A stretch of DNA of 36,941 nt from Candidatus Gemmiger excrementavium. Its GTDB lineage: Bacteria; Bacillota; Clostridia; Oscillospirales; Ruminococcaceae. A program made the position numbers and the translations under genes. The notes below the pieces were generated by a model, which was given only the letters and a program-made list of their open reading frames with translations, was not told where the DNA came from and did no database searches. The stretch spans positions 1 to 36,941 of the forward strand of contig DXBO01000124.1 in the NCBI GenBank assembly GCA_019116485.1. Reading direction: 5' to 3'. Within the stretch, counting starts at the first letter, position 1. Every line of letters begins with the position of its first letter. Of this stretch, positions 2,180 through 6,519 are shown piece after piece.

Positions 2180-2208
2180 TTGACAGGCCGTGCGGGCTGT
2201 GGTATGGT
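2180..2208 (+). promoter_or_regulatory. Promoter of palindrome module A
   Basis: Perfect TTGACA (2180-2185), 17 bases, TATGGT (2203-2208), starting nine bases after the preceding stop codon. The same arrangement recurs at 6272-6300. Confidence 0.7.
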
Positions 2209-2214
2209 ATATGT

Positions 2215-2236
2215 GTAGTTAGTATATGCTAACTAC
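2215..2236 (+). promoter_or_regulatory. Palindrome A (operator or 5' hairpin)
   Basis: Half-sites TAGTTAG (2216-2222) and CTAACTA (2229-2235) flank the hexamer TATATG, extended by one more G-C pair. It begins seven bases after the -10, at the predicted transcription start, which is where a repressor would block RNA polymerase. The sequence recalls metal-dependent DtxR-family operators, but the 6-base spacing differs from the classical IdeR/DtxR box, so the regulator is unassigned. Confidence 0.7.
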
Positions 2237-2254
2237 GGGCCCGCTGACCATGCT

Positions 2255-2283
2255 CCCGGCTGCGCGGGCGGCCGGGCGTTTTT
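2255..2283 (+). terminator. Candidate terminator downstream of module A
   Basis: CCCGGC (2255-2260) and GCCGGG (2271-2276) form a 6-bp GC stem with a 10-base loop, followed by CG and TTTTT (2279-2283). It would end a transcript from module A after about 65 bases, or attenuate read-through toward pflB. Confidence 0.55.
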
Positions 2284-2443
2284 GTGTGGAAAGGACGCCG
2301 TGATCACACGCCAACATCCCCAGCGGCGTGGCAAGCCGAAAGGACCCGACCAAATGTTGCCGGAACAACATACATCGCCCCGGGCATTTGGTATCATAAC
2401 GGTGCGCGTTGGGTCCCGCGCAAAAAAAATCACCCATTGCCTC
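2284..2443 (+). other. pflB upstream non-coding region with inverted repeats
   Basis: I see no gene here. The region holds several small inverted repeats: ACGCC/GGCGT around a 12-base loop near 2310-2330; CCAAATG (2350-2356) with CATTTGG (2385-2391), and inside it ATGTTG with CAACAT (2354-2371); GCGCG (2404-2408) with CGCGC (2417-2421). The pflB reading frame is open throughout, but there is no ribosome site in it. It would be leader RNA only for transcripts starting at module A. Confidence 0.4.
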
Positions 2444-2471
2444 TTGCACTTTTCGGTAGATATGGTATGAT
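2444..2471 (+). promoter_or_regulatory. Proximal promoter of pflB
   Basis: TTGCAC (2444-2449), 16 bases, TATGAT (2466-2471). The predicted leader is about 50 bases and ends in the pflB ribosome site. Confidence 0.65.
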
Positions 2472-2526
2472 AGTATCTGCGCCGATACAAGATATAGGCA
2501 AGCAAACTTTTGGGAGAGGTGCAACT

Positions 2527-4779
2527 ATGACAGATTTCAAACAGTGGGAAGGCTTTGAGGGCCGTATCTGGAAAGAGGAAGTCAACACCCGCGACTTTAT
2601 CCAGAAAAACTACAAACCCTACGACGGGGACGAGAGTTTCCTCGCCGGTCCCACCGAAGCAACCGACAAGCTGTGGGGCGCTCTGCAGGCCTTGCAGAAA
2701 GAAGAACGTGCCAAGGGCGGCGTGCTGGATATGGAGACCGAGGTCGTCTCCGGCCTGACCGCCTACGGTCCCGGCTACATCGACCCCGCACTCAAAGACC
2801 TGGAGCAGATCGTGGGTTTGCAGACCGACAAGCCCCTGAAACGTGCCTTTATGCCCTATGGCGGCATCAAGATGGCGGAGCAGGCCTGCACCACTTACGG
2901 CTATACCCCCAGCGAGAAGCTGCACGAAATTTTTACCCAGTATACCCGCACCCATAACCAGGCGGTGTTTGACGCTTACACCCCCGAAATGCGCAAGGCC
3001 CGCCACAGCCACATCGTCACCGGTTTGCCCGACACTTACGGCCGTGGCCGTATTGTGGGCGATTACCGCCGCGTGGCGCTGTACGGCATCGATTTCCTGA
3101 TCCGGGAAAAGCAGAACGACTTTGCCAACTGCGGCGACGGCACCATGCTGGACGACGTGATCCGCCAGCGGGAGGAAATCTCCCTGCAGATCAATGCCCT
3201 TAAGGGTATGAAGGCAATGGCTGCCACCTACGGCTACGATATTTCCCAGCCCGCCGCCAACGCCAAGGAGGCCGTGCAGTGGCTGTACTTCGGTTACCTG
3301 GCTGCTATCAAGACCCAGAACGGTGCCGCTATGAGCGTGGGCCGTGTGTCTACCTTCCTGGATATCTACATCCAGCGCGATCTGGACCGCGGCCTGCTCA
3401 CCGAGAGTGAGGCCCAGGAACTGATCGACCATCTGGTCATGAAGTTCCGCATGGTCAAGTTTGCCCGCATCCCCAGCTACAACCAGCTGTTCAGCGGCGA
3501 CCCCGTGTGGGCCACCCTGGAAGTGGGCGGCATCGGCATGGATGGACGTTCCATGGTCACCAAGACCGACTTCCGTTTCCTGCACACGCTGGAGAACATG
3601 GGCCCCGCCCCGGAGCCCAACATGACGGTGCTCTATTCCTCCGCCCTGCCCAAGACCTTCAAGGATTACGCCGCCCGCATCTCCATCAAGACCTCCTCGG
3701 TCCAGTATGAGAATGACGATGTGATGAAACCGGTATGGGGCGACGACTACTCCATCTGCTGCTGTGTGTCTGCCACCCAGACCGGCAAGGAGATGCAGTT
3801 CTTCGGCGCCCGCGCCAACCTGGCCAAGTGCCTGCTGTATGCCATCAACGGCGGTGTGGACGAAAAGCTGGGCGAGCAGATCGGCCCCCACTACGCCCCC
3901 ATCACCAGCGAGTACCTGGACTACGACGAGGTCATGCAGAAGTACGACGTGATGATGGACTGGCTGGCCGGGCTGTATGTGAACATCCTCAACCTGATCC
4001 AGTACATGCACGACAAGTACTACTATGAGGCCGCCGAGATGGCCCTCATCGATACCGATGTGCGCCGTACCTTTGCCACCGGCATTGCGGGCTTCAGCCA
4101 TGTGGTGGACTCTCTCAGCGCCATCAAGTACGCCAAGGTCAAGTGCATCCGCAACGAGCAGGGCATCGTCACCGACTATGAGATCGAGGGCGATTTCCCC
4201 AAATACGGCAACGACGACGACCGCGCCGATACCATCGCCGTTAATCTGCTGCGCAGCTTCCTGGAGAAGATCAAGCGCCGCCACACCTACCGCAATTCCG
4301 AACCCACCACCTCCATCCTGACCATCACCTCCAACGTGGTGTACGGCAAAGCCACCGGCGCCATGCCCGATGGCCGTAAAGCCTATACCCCCTTCGCCCC
4401 CGGCGGCAACCCCAGCTACGGCGCCGAGACCCACGGCCTGCTGGCCTCGCTGAACTCGGTGGCCAAGCTGCCCTACCATTGGGCGCTGGACGGCATCTCC
4501 AACACCCAGACCATCAACCCCGATGCCCTGGGCCACTCCGAGCAGGAGCGGGTGGAGAACCTGGTCCAGGTCATGGACGGCTACTTTGACCAGGGTGCCC
4601 ACCACCTGAACGTCAATGTCTTCGGCACTGAGAAGCTCATTGACGCCATGGAACACCCCGAAAAGGAAGAGTACGCCAACTTTACCATCCGCGTCTCCGG
4701 CTACGCCGTCAAGTTCATTGACCTGACCCGTGAGCAGCAGCTGGACGTTATTGCCCGCACCTGCCACAAGGCCATGTGA
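2527..4779 (+). CDS. pflB: Pyruvate formate-lyase (formate acetyltransferase)
   Basis: Glycyl-radical enzyme that cleaves pyruvate with CoA to acetyl-CoA and formate in the anaerobic cytoplasm. The 750-residue length is normal for the family (E. coli 760). The catalytic thiols lie in SICCCVSA: Cys412-Cys413 align with the E. coli Cys418-Cys419 pair, with an extra Cys411 before them. The C-terminal radical site is RVSGYAVKF with Gly725, 25 residues from the end. The ATG at 2527 has GGGAGAGG seven bases upstream and starts the canonical [10 protein letters not shown]; the frame remains open to 2284 but those codons are leader. It is followed by a strong bidirectional terminator. Its activase is 0.7 kb downstream under a separate promoter. 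Confidence 0.98.
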
Positions 4780-4795
4780 TCCCCGGCAAAGCATA

Positions 4796-4837
4796 AAAAG
4801 ATCCGCGGCCGCATCCAAGGGCGGCCGCGGATTTTTT
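4796..4837. terminator. Bidirectional terminator between pflB and the 4850-5356 gene
   Basis: A 12-bp perfect stem (4801-4812 with 4821-4832, ATCCGCGGCCGC type) has an 8-base loop. It is followed by six T on the plus strand and preceded by an A-run that gives five U on the minus strand, so it serves both convergent genes. Confidence 0.93.
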
Positions 4838-4849
4838 CGGTTCTTGTGT

Positions 4850-5356
4850 TCAGCGTATCGTGTCGCGCAGATGGTTCAGTTCCGCGGCCAGGGCCTTGTA
4901 GTCGGCATTCCGCACCAGCAGCACCATGACCACGAACTGGGTCAGGGCGTCCAGCATCATAGCACCCAGCCCCAGGGCGAGCAGGGGCGCCGCTGCCAGA
5001 TAGGGCCCGATATCGGCCAGGGACAAAAGAAAATTCAGCATACCGTACACGCCGCCTACCAGGCCCAGCCAGGCAAAGATACGCAGGCCCCGGCGCAGCA
5101 GCCAGGCAAAGACGAAAGCCGCCGCGATGCTGACCACCAGGTTGGCGACTATGGCGCTCAGGTTCAGATAGCCCAGCACACCTATGGCCAGCAGCACGAT
5201 GGTACAGGCGCAGCGCACCACGATCCATGCACTGGTCATCTGCTGTACCCGGGCCACCACTTCCCCGTGGGCTTCCAAAACCTTCTGGCTGGCGGCGTTC
5301 AGCTGTTCCCGGCGCATCTTTTTCTGTTCCTGCCGCATTTTTTTCTCTTCATTCAT
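4850..5356 (-). CDS. Four-TM membrane protein with charged N-terminal helix, unknown function
   Basis: A 168-residue protein. Residues 1-40 are highly charged and likely helical (EEKKMRQEQKKMRREQ), followed by about four hydrophobic segments that fill the rest, and a short polar tail. The ATG at 5356 is preceded by a very good AAAGGAGG site eight bases away; the longer open frame reaching 6202 is antisense to pflA and spurious. It lies between pflB and pflA in the opposite orientation and shares its promoter region with pflA. I do not recognise a family. Its placement inside the pyruvate formate-lyase locus is the only hint to a role. Confidence 0.8.
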   Translation of the reverse strand: MNEEKKMRQEQKKMRREQLNAASQKVLEAHGEVVARVQQMTSAWIVVRCACTIVLLAIGVLGYLNLSAIVANLVVSIAAAFVFAWLLRRGLRIFAWLGLVGGVYGMLNFLLSLADIGPYLAAAPLLALGLGAMMLDALTQFVVMVLLVRNADYKALAAELNHLRDTIR

Positions 5357-5377
5357 ACCGATGCCCTCCTTTACCCC

Positions 5378-5406
5378 AGTGTACCACAGCGGGCGGGGGA
5401 TTACAA
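5378..5406 (-). promoter_or_regulatory. Promoter of the 4850-5356 gene
   Basis: Minus strand: TTGTAA (5406-5401), 17 bases, TACACT (5383-5378). Its -35 hexamer is the same six base pairs as the pflA -35. Confidence 0.6.
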
Positions 5407-5430
5407 TCATATGGCGGCACATTGTATGAT
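5401..5430 (+). promoter_or_regulatory. Promoter of pflA
   Basis: TTACAA (5401-5406), 18 bases, TATGAT (5425-5430), with a leader of about 28 bases. The -35 is shared with the divergent promoter on the minus strand. Confidence 0.6.
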
Positions 5431-5464
5431 CCGATTGTCTTAACGAGCAAGGAGCTGACGATTT

Positions 5465-6235
5465 ATGGCAACGCATGATTCCATCACAGGGTATGTCCAT
5501 TCCGTGGAGACCTTCGGCCTGGTAGACGGGCCGGGGGTGCGCTACGTACTGTTTTTGCAGGGCTGCGCCATGCGCTGCCGCTACTGCCACAACCCCGAGA
5601 CCTGGGCCTTTACCCGGGACACCGCCAAAACGCCCCAGCAGGCCTTTGATGCGGCCTGGCGCTACCGCAACTACTGGCGCAGCAACGGCGGGCTGACCAT
5701 CAGCGGCGGTGAACCGCTGCTGCAGCTGGATTTTGTCAGCGAGGTATTCCGCCTGGCCCACGCCAAGGGAGTACACACCGCGCTGGATACCAGCGGCCAG
5801 CCCTTCCGGCCCGGCGACGAGGCCTGGCTGGCCCGATTTGACGCCCTGCTGGACAACACGAGTTTGGTGATCCTGGACCTGAAAGAGATGGACGAGGAAA
5901 AGCACCGGGCGTTGACCGGCCACGGCAACGCCAACATTCTGGCCATGGCCCGGTATGTGGCGGCGCGGGGCGTGCCCCTGTGGATACGCCATGTGCTGGT
6001 GCCGGGGCTTACCGACGATGCCGAGGGGCTGCGGGCGCTGGACGCCTTCCTCAAGACGCTGCCCACCCTGCGCCGGGTGGAGGTGCTGCCCTACCACACC
6101 CTGGGGCTGTTCAAGTGGCAGAACCTGGGGATTCCCTACACGCTGGAGGGCGTACCCACCCCCACTGCGGAACAGGTGGCTGCCGCTGAGGAGTTGCTGC
6201 ATGTGCGGGACTACCCTGATGCCCCCAAGAACTGA
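5465..6235 (+). CDS. pflA: Pyruvate formate-lyase-activating enzyme (radical SAM)
   Basis: Radical S-adenosylmethionine enzyme that installs the glycyl radical on PflB. The CX3CX2C cluster motif is GCAMRCRYCHNP with Cys34, Cys38 and Cys41 binding the 4Fe-4S centre. SAM-binding glycines are in TISGGEPLLQ (78-87), and the N-terminal VETFGLVDGPGVR block is typical of PFL-AE. At 256 residues it has the minimal activase length, without the extra ferredoxin domain of other glycyl-radical activases. The ATG is supported by AAGGAG ten bases upstream. It is transcribed separately from pflB and ends at a hairpin (6237-6264). Confidence 0.97.
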   Translation: MATHDSITGYVHSVETFGLVDGPGVRYVLFLQGCAMRCRYCHNPETWAFTRDTAKTPQQAFDAAWRYRNYWRSNGGLTISGGEPLLQLDFVSEVFRLAHAKGVHTALDTSGQPFRPGDEAWLARFDALLDNTSLVILDLKEMDEEKHRALTGHGNANILAMARYVAARGVPLWIRHVLVPGLTDDAEGLRALDAFLKTLPTLRRVEVLPYHTLGLFKWQNLGIPYTLEGVPTPTAEQVAAAEELLHVRDYPDAPKN

Positions 6236-6236
6236 A

Positions 6237-6264
6237 GGCTAAAAAACCATTGGCTTTTTTAGCC
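6237..6264 (+). terminator. Terminator after pflA
   Basis: GGCTAAAAAA (6237-6246) pairs with TTTTTTAGCC (6255-6264) around an 8-base loop, two bases after the stop codon. The U-tract is inside the 3' arm. Confidence 0.75.
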
Positions 6265-6271
6265 CATCCCC

Positions 6272-6300
6272 TTGACAGGGAGGCCGGAGTATGGTAAAGT
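6272..6300 (+). promoter_or_regulatory. Promoter of palindrome module B
   Basis: TTGACA (6272-6277), 17 bases, TAAAGT (6295-6300), beginning right after the pflA terminator. The geometry is the same as module A at 2180-2208. Confidence 0.65.
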
Positions 6301-6307
6301 ATACTCG

Positions 6308-6327
6308 TAGTTAGTTTATGCTAACTA
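6308..6327 (+). promoter_or_regulatory. Palindrome B (operator or 5' hairpin)
   Basis: TAGTTAG (6308-6314), TTTATG, CTAACTA (6321-6327). The half-sites are identical to those of palindrome A. The distance from the -10 is also identical (7 bases), and 19 of the 20 bases match. Confidence 0.7.
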
Positions 6328-6443
6328 TAACCAATGTAAGCCCCGCGGTTTTTGCCTCGCCGCCGGGTTTCTGCCAATAGCAGGCTGCGCCTCCGTTTCG
6401 GCGTTCTGCTCTGCGCCTTTTTCAGCGGTCTGCTTATTGCGTC

Positions 6444-6480
6444 GCCCACACCGTTTCTGCTCCAACGGTGTGGGCTTTTT
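6444..6480 (+). terminator. Intrinsic terminator of the module B transcript
   Basis: A 12-bp perfect stem (6444-6455 with 6464-6475) with an 8-base loop is followed by TTTTT. It faces, and is separate from, the minus-strand terminator at 6493-6519. Confidence 0.9.
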
Positions 6481-6492
6481 GTCTTTGAAAAC

Positions 6493-6519
6493 AAAAAGCC
6501 CTGCCGCAAAACGGCAGGG
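6493..6519 (-). terminator. Terminator of the glycosyltransferase operon
   Basis: CCCTGCCG (6499-6506) and CGGCAGGG (6512-6519) form an 8-bp stem with a 5-base loop, followed on the minus strand by five U (A-run 6493-6497). It lies 25 bases past the last glycosyltransferase stop. Confidence 0.9.

Follow-up and report, generated by a model that had tools for sequence, protein, structure and literature searches.

Two promoter-operator modules of DtxR-like type at a pyruvate formate-lyase locus of Candidatus Gemmiger excrementavium point to a candidate iron-responsive switch with a predicted structured small RNA

In this work we analyzed a window of 36,941 nucleotides (nt), the whole stretch of contig DXBO01000124.1 (contig C61 in our numbering) from a draft genome of Candidatus Gemmiger excrementavium (assembly GCA_019116485.1; 2.53 Mb, 94% complete), in which two copies of a promoter-operator module bracket the pyruvate formate-lyase (PFL) genes pflB and pflA. 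Our results indicate that the operator marks a predicted iron regulon, and that the second module, rather than being a pfl promoter, heads an independent predicted gene for a structured non-coding small RNA (sRNA). We regard it as rather probable that the locus acts as an iron-responsive DtxR-type switch, both modules firing at low iron and adding PFL together with an sRNA directed at pyruvate:ferredoxin oxidoreductase (PFOR). In the proposed mechanism, a repressor of DtxR type, probably activated by Fe(II), has its operator over the start site of each module; with plentiful iron the repressor would block them, and with scarce iron both would fire. Module 1 would then add transcription toward pflB, whose product is an enzyme without iron of its own, and module 2 would yield an RNA of about 173 nt with C/U-rich loops that could pair with mRNAs of iron-rich proteins at their start regions, PFOR being the best candidate and rubrerythrin the second. 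As a net effect, pyruvate cleavage would move from PFOR to PFL and iron would be spared. The sequence itself shows the modules, the operator family and its conservation, the conserved structure of the RNA and the iron genes nearby; which repressor acts and with which metal, the response to iron, expression of the sRNA and repression of PFOR are inferred.

Module 1 reads TTGACA-N17-TATGGT-N7-TAGTTAG-N6-CTAACTA at positions 2180-2235 and module 2 reads TTGACA-N17-TAAAGT-N7-TAGTTAG-N6-CTAACTA at 6272-6327 (forward strand, as are all features of the window unless stated), and the 60-bp stretches around them are 77% identical without gaps. Both promoters (2180-2208 and 6272-6300) score 10/12 and carry an extended -10 TG; the operators, TAGTTAG-TATATG-CTAACTA (2216-2235) and TAGTTAG-TTTATG-CTAACTA (6308-6327), lie on the predicted transcription starts. 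With up to three mismatches the palindrome occurs at just these two places of the window, and dinucleotide shuffles of the window gave a mean of 0.13 matches, with two matches in none of 100. The identical spacing, the lack of further copies in the window and the placement of both modules had been described in an original prediction for this DNA, and all of these were borne out. Module 1 starts 8 nt past the stop of the preceding open reading frame (ORF; 951-2171, no Pfam match) and lies 5' of pflB (2527-4779; PF02901, 700 bits; PF01228, 111 bits). The stop codon of pflA (5465-6235; a radical SAM activase matching PF04055 and PF13353) occupies 6233-6235 and is followed by an AT-rich inverted repeat, GGCTAAAAAA/TTTTTTAGCC (6237-6264; seen by eye and absent from the hairpin scan), a possible terminator splitting pflA from module 2, which comes next. 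A terminator-like hairpin with a T-run, absent from the original prediction, stands 3' of each module (stems 2255-2276 and 6444-6475).

Module 2 heads a predicted sRNA of about 173 nt (6308-6481) whose fold lies 5.8 standard deviations below that of shuffled sequences (z-score -5.8), and which ends in an intrinsic terminator (6444-6480) formed by a 12-bp hairpin and T5. With the operator at the transcription start, the operator sequence (6308-6327) would be transcribed and would form the 5' hairpin of this RNA. In the alignment of 12 sRNAs from the genus, the first loop CCUCCGUUU (6390-6398), the second loop UGCUCUG (6407-6413; its last G is paired in the consensus fold) and UCUGCUCC in the terminator loop are invariant in 12/12 while the stems vary; the operator half-sites are nearly invariant, and columns 2 and 19 covary. 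Both-side changes were found in 6 of 33 pairs, a number reached in 3 of 500 shuffles, and the pair-type count was reached in 31 of 500; paired cells made up 94.7%, and no more than 50% once the partners were slid, and the terminator helix is 88.8% paired. Two traits by which iron-sparing sRNAs are judged were found: a predicted free-standing non-coding transcript with its own promoter and terminator, and a conserved unpaired seed in the loops, C-rich as in Gram-positives.

A covariance model detected the sRNA in 13 of the 35 genomes of the genus set; 12 of these 13 had built the model, so that G003 is the sole independent find. A loop-pattern search recovered the same 13 genomes and one probable chance match. 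Among 297 genomes sampled from the family, the model found the RNA in two, both of the same genus, and in no other genus; the filters of this search were stricter, and distant copies may therefore be missed. With Rfam 15, no match reached the gathering threshold in the window, and the six weak matches within 6250-6500 were all below it. The role in pflB and activase expression that the original prediction implied for the two modules alike is not supported for module 2, which heads an RNA with its own terminator found in 13/35 genomes. Conservation in relatives was upheld: in 12 relatives picked for carrying the RNA, a module follows pflA in 12/12 and another precedes pflB in 9/12.

Module 1 is probably a distal low-iron promoter of pflB. 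An operator with a TTGAC promoter stands 205-252 bp before the pflB ATG in those nine relatives, and 311 bp before it here; in G006, G013 and G014 the closest upstream operators are about 1.5-1.7 kb from pflB and may serve another gene. Further promoters with adjoining operator copies (0-2 mismatches) were seen upstream of pfl in G006 (L220:1703-2122) and G013 (L222:8254-8659). In the 10 genomes in which the module 1 region was compared, a second promoter-like element, TTG-(C/T)-(A/G)-(C/T), N16, TAT-G/T/C-AT, was seen by eye closer to pflB in 10/10; here it reads TTGCAC-N16-TATGAT (2444-2471) and has no operator. Our genome also has a GC-rich hairpin with T5 (2255-2283), a terminator or attenuator, 64 nt after the module 1 start; at -21.9 kcal/mol it is the strongest of the 10 genomes, followed by hairpins in G024 (-14.5 kcal/mol) and G008 (-10.8 kcal/mol), the others being weaker or lacking one at a comparable position. 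Module 1 may therefore be attenuated here. A second sRNA behind module 1 was considered and disfavoured, and the reading as a distal pflB promoter was preferred, because a strong hairpin-T run is confined to this genome.

Beyond the window, the operator belongs to a motif family, (A/G)GTTAG-N6-CTAAC(C/T), for which the proposed search across the genome and its relatives gave a non-random distribution. The exact 56-bp promoter-operator pattern (23 fixed bases) was found in 51 stretches of public genome contigs, most of them labelled Clostridia or Erysipelotrichaceae, with a chance expectation of about 0.01 matches in 257 billion bases at even base composition. Downstream proteins were proposed by script at 49 of these loci (all but L028 and L029); the scan took in 48, that of L048 being omitted as a likely false ORF; DUF3793 was found in 10, FeoA in 8, DUF2325 in 7, ZIP in 3 and NrdI in 2, the set including a few poor choices (an internal AhpC start at L019, a probable false ORF at L030, and the second gene, FeoB, at L064). 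PF01325 was matched by three proteins, one a true DtxR-type regulator (L061) and two of DeoR type (L022, L056). Other genes behind the operator encode a phosphoglycerate mutase-like protein (L025), AhpC (L019), a Spirochaetaceae lipoprotein-like product (L021, by eye) and GDSL lipases (L026, L032, L035), each of the latter behind a non-coding stretch. The motif finds iron-uptake genes across Clostridia and Erysipelotrichia, which agrees with the earlier suggestion of a repressor-type operator in a metal regulon, here probably one of iron. In our genome the motif also stands twice before a DUF3793 gene, and before a siderophore operon of FecCD type; at up to one mismatch it occurs in 10 places (5 exact) versus 4 for the reversed pattern. 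Within 800 kb of the 2.99-Mb genome of a relative, G026, the sequence GTTAG-Nx-CTAAC had six occurrences at x = 6, one at x = 10 and none at the other 13 spacers of 0-14, x = 0-5 included; one of the six sites lies at a feo locus (L264), and genes near the L249 sites encode ABC transporters, a ZIP transporter and a methyltransferase. In G026, two operators also separate a second DtxR-type gene from a divergent DUF3793-flavodoxin pair.

As the leading regulator we favour a DtxR-type protein, the class of which the half-sites had reminded the original prediction, where the regulator was left open: half-sites of DtxR/IdeR type, GGTTAG/CTAACC, are found in operator copies, the motif adjoins DtxR-type genes, and a DtxR-type, probably Fe(II)-dependent repressor would best explain the operator. 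Our genome encodes one PF01325 protein of 125 aa (C94:5343-5717; 48.8 bits, cut-off 26), which also exceeds the cut-off for PF02742. It is preceded by two one-mismatch operators, an 86-aa C-terminal piece of FeoB and a Cys-rich small ORF; the piece is unrecognised by Pfam and was named through its 76% identity to residues 645-730 of G026 FeoB. The order is intact in G026, where it runs on one strand as promoter, operators, feoA (PF04023), feoB (PF02421 and others) and then the orthologue of the C94 regulator, the promoter being TTGACA-N17-TATAGT with three operator-like copies (by eye). On C94 the iron-transport promoter and operators lead directly into the FeoB fragment (L097:4547-5720); most of feoAB seems to be missing there, perhaps through an assembly fault. 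Homologues of the regulator occur in 33/35 genus genomes, including 19/19 of good quality. At up to one mismatch, the motif lies near 9/30 of the DtxR loci in the genus. For PF01325 loci of other genomes, a set selected because they bear the module, the figure is 6/30; the remaining 21 and 24 loci had none, and the reversed control gave 0/30 in each case. A survey of PF01325 across 50 other genomes (45 over the cut-off; 50 of 51 loci given) was set aside as uninformative, 12 of 14 controls passing too.

Two other sensors were weighed against a DtxR-type iron repressor. If an MntR-like manganese sensor read the operator, pflB and the RNA would respond to manganese. Residues 4-118 of the C94 regulator match structures of MntR, IdeR and DtxR, MntR proteins being the best matches; the best NCBIfam score of the protein is that of MntR, below the cut-off, it keeps the MntR-type N-terminal Asp/Glu pair and His, and ZIP and NrdI genes lie within the regulon. 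We nevertheless consider manganese control unlikely, since the genes preceded by the motif include those for FeoA/FeoB, a siderophore ABC system and flavodoxin, and since the protein has Cys-Lys-Ile-Glu-His where MntR of Bacillus subtilis has Glu-Gly-Ile-Glu-His. Cys at that Glu position is the DtxR/IdeR state, and because of this replacement we infer that the regulator probably senses Fe(II); its ligand set is mixed. A Fur-family repressor would have two candidates in this genome, one of them also on C94, and these proteins count against our assignment; the one on C94 scores best with PerR, below the cut-off. The Fur box is an A/T-rich site of the type GATAATGATAATCATTATC, which by inspection the operator copies do not fit, their half-sites being DtxR-like, and the motif adjoins DtxR-type genes, so that we hold control by Fur to be very improbable.

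In place of the rationale first offered, an iron-sulfur activase under metal control, we propose that low iron raises PFL and lowers PFOR. We selected PFOR because it is the iron-rich functional counterpart to PFL, and did so before viewing its sequence. Its start region commonly reads AAA(C/T)GGAGGAAGAAAAATGCCCAGAGCAAAACAG, in which AAA(C/T)GGAGG, covering the Shine-Dalgarno region, is complementary to the first sRNA loop, and CAGAGCA, in codons 2-4, to the second. In the target screen, which was confined to the same 800 kb of G026, 1749 sites with a Shine-Dalgarno sequence and a start were considered; the first seed occurred in 10, the second in 8, and both in PFOR alone. Of the ten AAA[CT]GGAGG sites, four reduce to two places, one of them 16S rRNA-like (by eye) and one internal, and six are genes, for PFOR, rubrerythrin, a sigma-70 region 4 protein, an aminotransferase, an MFS transporter and a DNA methylase. 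Shuffled loops matched PFOR doubly in 0.17% of trials. Counts across the genus covered every genome whose PFOR start could be read, 26 in total (12 with and 14 without the sRNA), the second PFOR-like copy of G014 being outside the counts; nine of the 35 genomes had no readable start (seven without a PFOR match), G003, which carries the sRNA, among them. AAA[CT]GGAGG was present in 12/12 PFORs of genomes with the sRNA, and the motif TGCAAAA in the PFOR leader separated 12/12 genomes with the RNA from 0/14 without it, a split that also tracks relatedness. An energy-only ranking of targets was rejected, GC-rich and false start sites dominating it; PFOR has no rank in the first such ranking because its start was uncalled among the 512 called genes.

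Several observations weigh against the proposed switch. The seed boundaries and the TGCAAAA motif were fixed after the PFOR sequence had been viewed; AAA[CT]GGAGG is also present in 13/14 PFORs of genomes without the sRNA, and CAGAGCA in just 9/12 with it, yet in 5/14 without. By duplex energy, PFOR ranks 355 of 653 with the G026 core, and the G014 PFOR 51 of 653 with the G014 core; with the G014 core, PFORs from genomes without the RNA reach -18.4 to -28.2, a pairing as good as the -19.3 to -26.3 of those with it and their own cores. In shuffles that preserved CCUCC, 3.3% of trials matched PFOR doubly. The order of the loops on the PFOR mRNA is non-antiparallel for the codon site, and the colinear pattern was not enriched across the 35 genomes, with 27 non-self matches (12 in the 13 genomes with the sRNA, 15 in the 22 without) versus 24 for the reversed pattern, 13 of the 40 rows of that search being the sRNA gene on the opposite strand. 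In the covariation analysis, a slide of +1 likewise gave 6 both-side-changed pairs, in 8 cells versus 12. As for the DNA, the hairpin-T run may halt module 1 transcripts before pflB in our genome, five of the six G026 motif sites cluster within one 20-kb stretch (L249), and the operator centre of 6 bp is wider than that of the classical DtxR/IdeR operator, a 19-bp box with half-sites one base apart. The original prediction had already remarked on this centre. Finally, a Clostridioides difficile study describes a lowered pfl-formate dehydrogenase-hydrogenase branch at low iron; another pfl has positive values there, in a table passage that lacks the column heads (PMC6311696).

The match of the loops to the PFOR start region is therefore suggestive only, since exact seeds single out PFOR and pairing energy does not, and we put PFOR as a target of the sRNA at slightly short of an even chance. 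A competing explanation keeps the iron-regulated operators and a real iron-sparing sRNA, and directs its C-rich loops mainly to other GGAGG leaders. It draws on the invariance of the loops next to the unexceptional energy of PFOR, on a screen that covered 800 kb of 2.99 Mb in one relative, and on rubrerythrin leaders that match in part in our genome and in G026; ours carries AGAGCAAATGGAGG directly before the start (C94:3892-3905). Among 30 colinear loci viewed by eye, this rubrerythrin and an FMN-reductase-like gene of G006 look iron-related, and G033, which is without the sRNA, has a colinear match at the same kind of gene. This explanation seems to us a serious but lesser possibility, as PFOR alone of the 1749 sites has both loop complements and was picked before its sequence was seen, if not before the seed boundaries were drawn. 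That module 2 is a mere promoter with a decaying leader, or that its RNA encodes a small protein, would accord with ATG ORFs of 20-54 codons in 7/13 copies. No ORF is common to the copies, however: 6/13 are without an ATG ORF of at least 8 codons and the ORFs of the rest begin at varying positions, and with paired bases covarying and loops invariant we give this idea hardly any credence.

Returning to the switch with PFOR as target, its fullest form would make this one locus a complete iron-sparing switch, in which a DtxR-type repressor on an N6 operator frees, at low iron, PFL and a neighbouring sRNA of a new family that shuts PFOR translation, other clostridial lineages having evolved unrelated sRNAs behind the same operator; we advance this tentatively, as a possibility that falls below even chances. 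The nearest functional analogues of the module 2 RNA, by description, are IsrR, FsrA and MrsI. IsrR of staphylococci is an iron-repressed, Fur-controlled sRNA in which three C-rich regions are unpaired and have been proposed to mask the Shine-Dalgarno sequence or AUG of iron-enzyme mRNAs; FsrA of B. subtilis is a Fur-controlled iron-sparing sRNA with FbpABC chaperones, whose C-rich motif binds the Shine-Dalgarno sequence; and MrsI of mycobacteria is an iron-sparing sRNA with predicted control by IdeR, of DtxR type (PMC9410917). Like IsrR, the module 2 RNA belongs to a Gram-positive and has predicted C-rich unpaired loops and its own terminator, and differs in the proposed DtxR-type control, the position at the pfl locus and the lack of an Rfam match. 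It shares C-rich loops with FsrA, again without an Rfam match of its own, and the proposed DtxR-type control with MrsI, which is from another phylum; both likenesses rest on the descriptions (PMC9410917). The 125-aa protein resembles DtxR, IdeR and MntR regulators in its two Pfam domains and structure matches, and departs from them in the centre of its proposed operator and in a mixed ligand set.

The proposed direction of the shift has parallels. In proteomics of Clostridium pasteurianum, PFL rises and the PFORs fall when iron is limiting, a response resembling the proposed switch in a different organism (PMC5395762), and iron deprivation of Roseburia is said in another study to lower butyrate and hydrogen and to raise lactate and formate (PMC7478625). 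The passages of both sources on this shift give no regulatory mechanism; if our proposal is true, the locus offers a testable one for gut bacteria. Among the matches listed for the open-licence literature, none dealt with this operator, linked DUF3793 to iron or described a clostridial sRNA under DtxR control; the system is of a known kind, and its RNA, operator and placement are absent from those matches.

Further observations concern other loci with the module. Three Clostridia metagenome-assembled genomes (MAGs) share a different conserved non-coding stretch behind the promoter-operator, with invariant ACCTCCTCCATACTTTCACTCTCATCCGAC (L026:3100-3290; L032:4120-4322 and L035:3532-3733, both on the reverse strand), and this may be an unrelated sRNA controlled in the same way. 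CCTC/CTCCTCC is also present in non-coding stretches that follow the operator at L048:7862-7917 (reverse strand) and L060:3680-3735, the hairpin-T run of L048 being very strong (-36.7 kcal/mol), and two Erysipelotrichaceae MAGs (L022, L056) have in common an apparently non-coding stretch of about 250 nt between the operator and the DeoR-type gene. An automatic terminator finder run on the 51 loci was left out of all counts; it listed eight, several of them short inter-operator hairpins, and took a wrong hairpin at L030. Two operators stand at several DUF3793 genes (L006:4040-4122, L033, L062, L090, L249:11732-11797), some with a GC hairpin between them (by eye). The exact module was also present in MAGs labelled Alistipes (L042), Spirochaetaceae (L021) and Hydrogenothermaceae (L029); in Alistipes the gene behind it looks DUF3793-like by eye, and the contig may therefore be mis-binned. 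Within the window itself, a 168-aa ORF without a Pfam match lies on the reverse strand between pflB and pflA (4853-5356), and the gap between these genes is about 690 bp, compared with about 75-165 bp in 9/12 relatives and about 190-325 bp in the other three.

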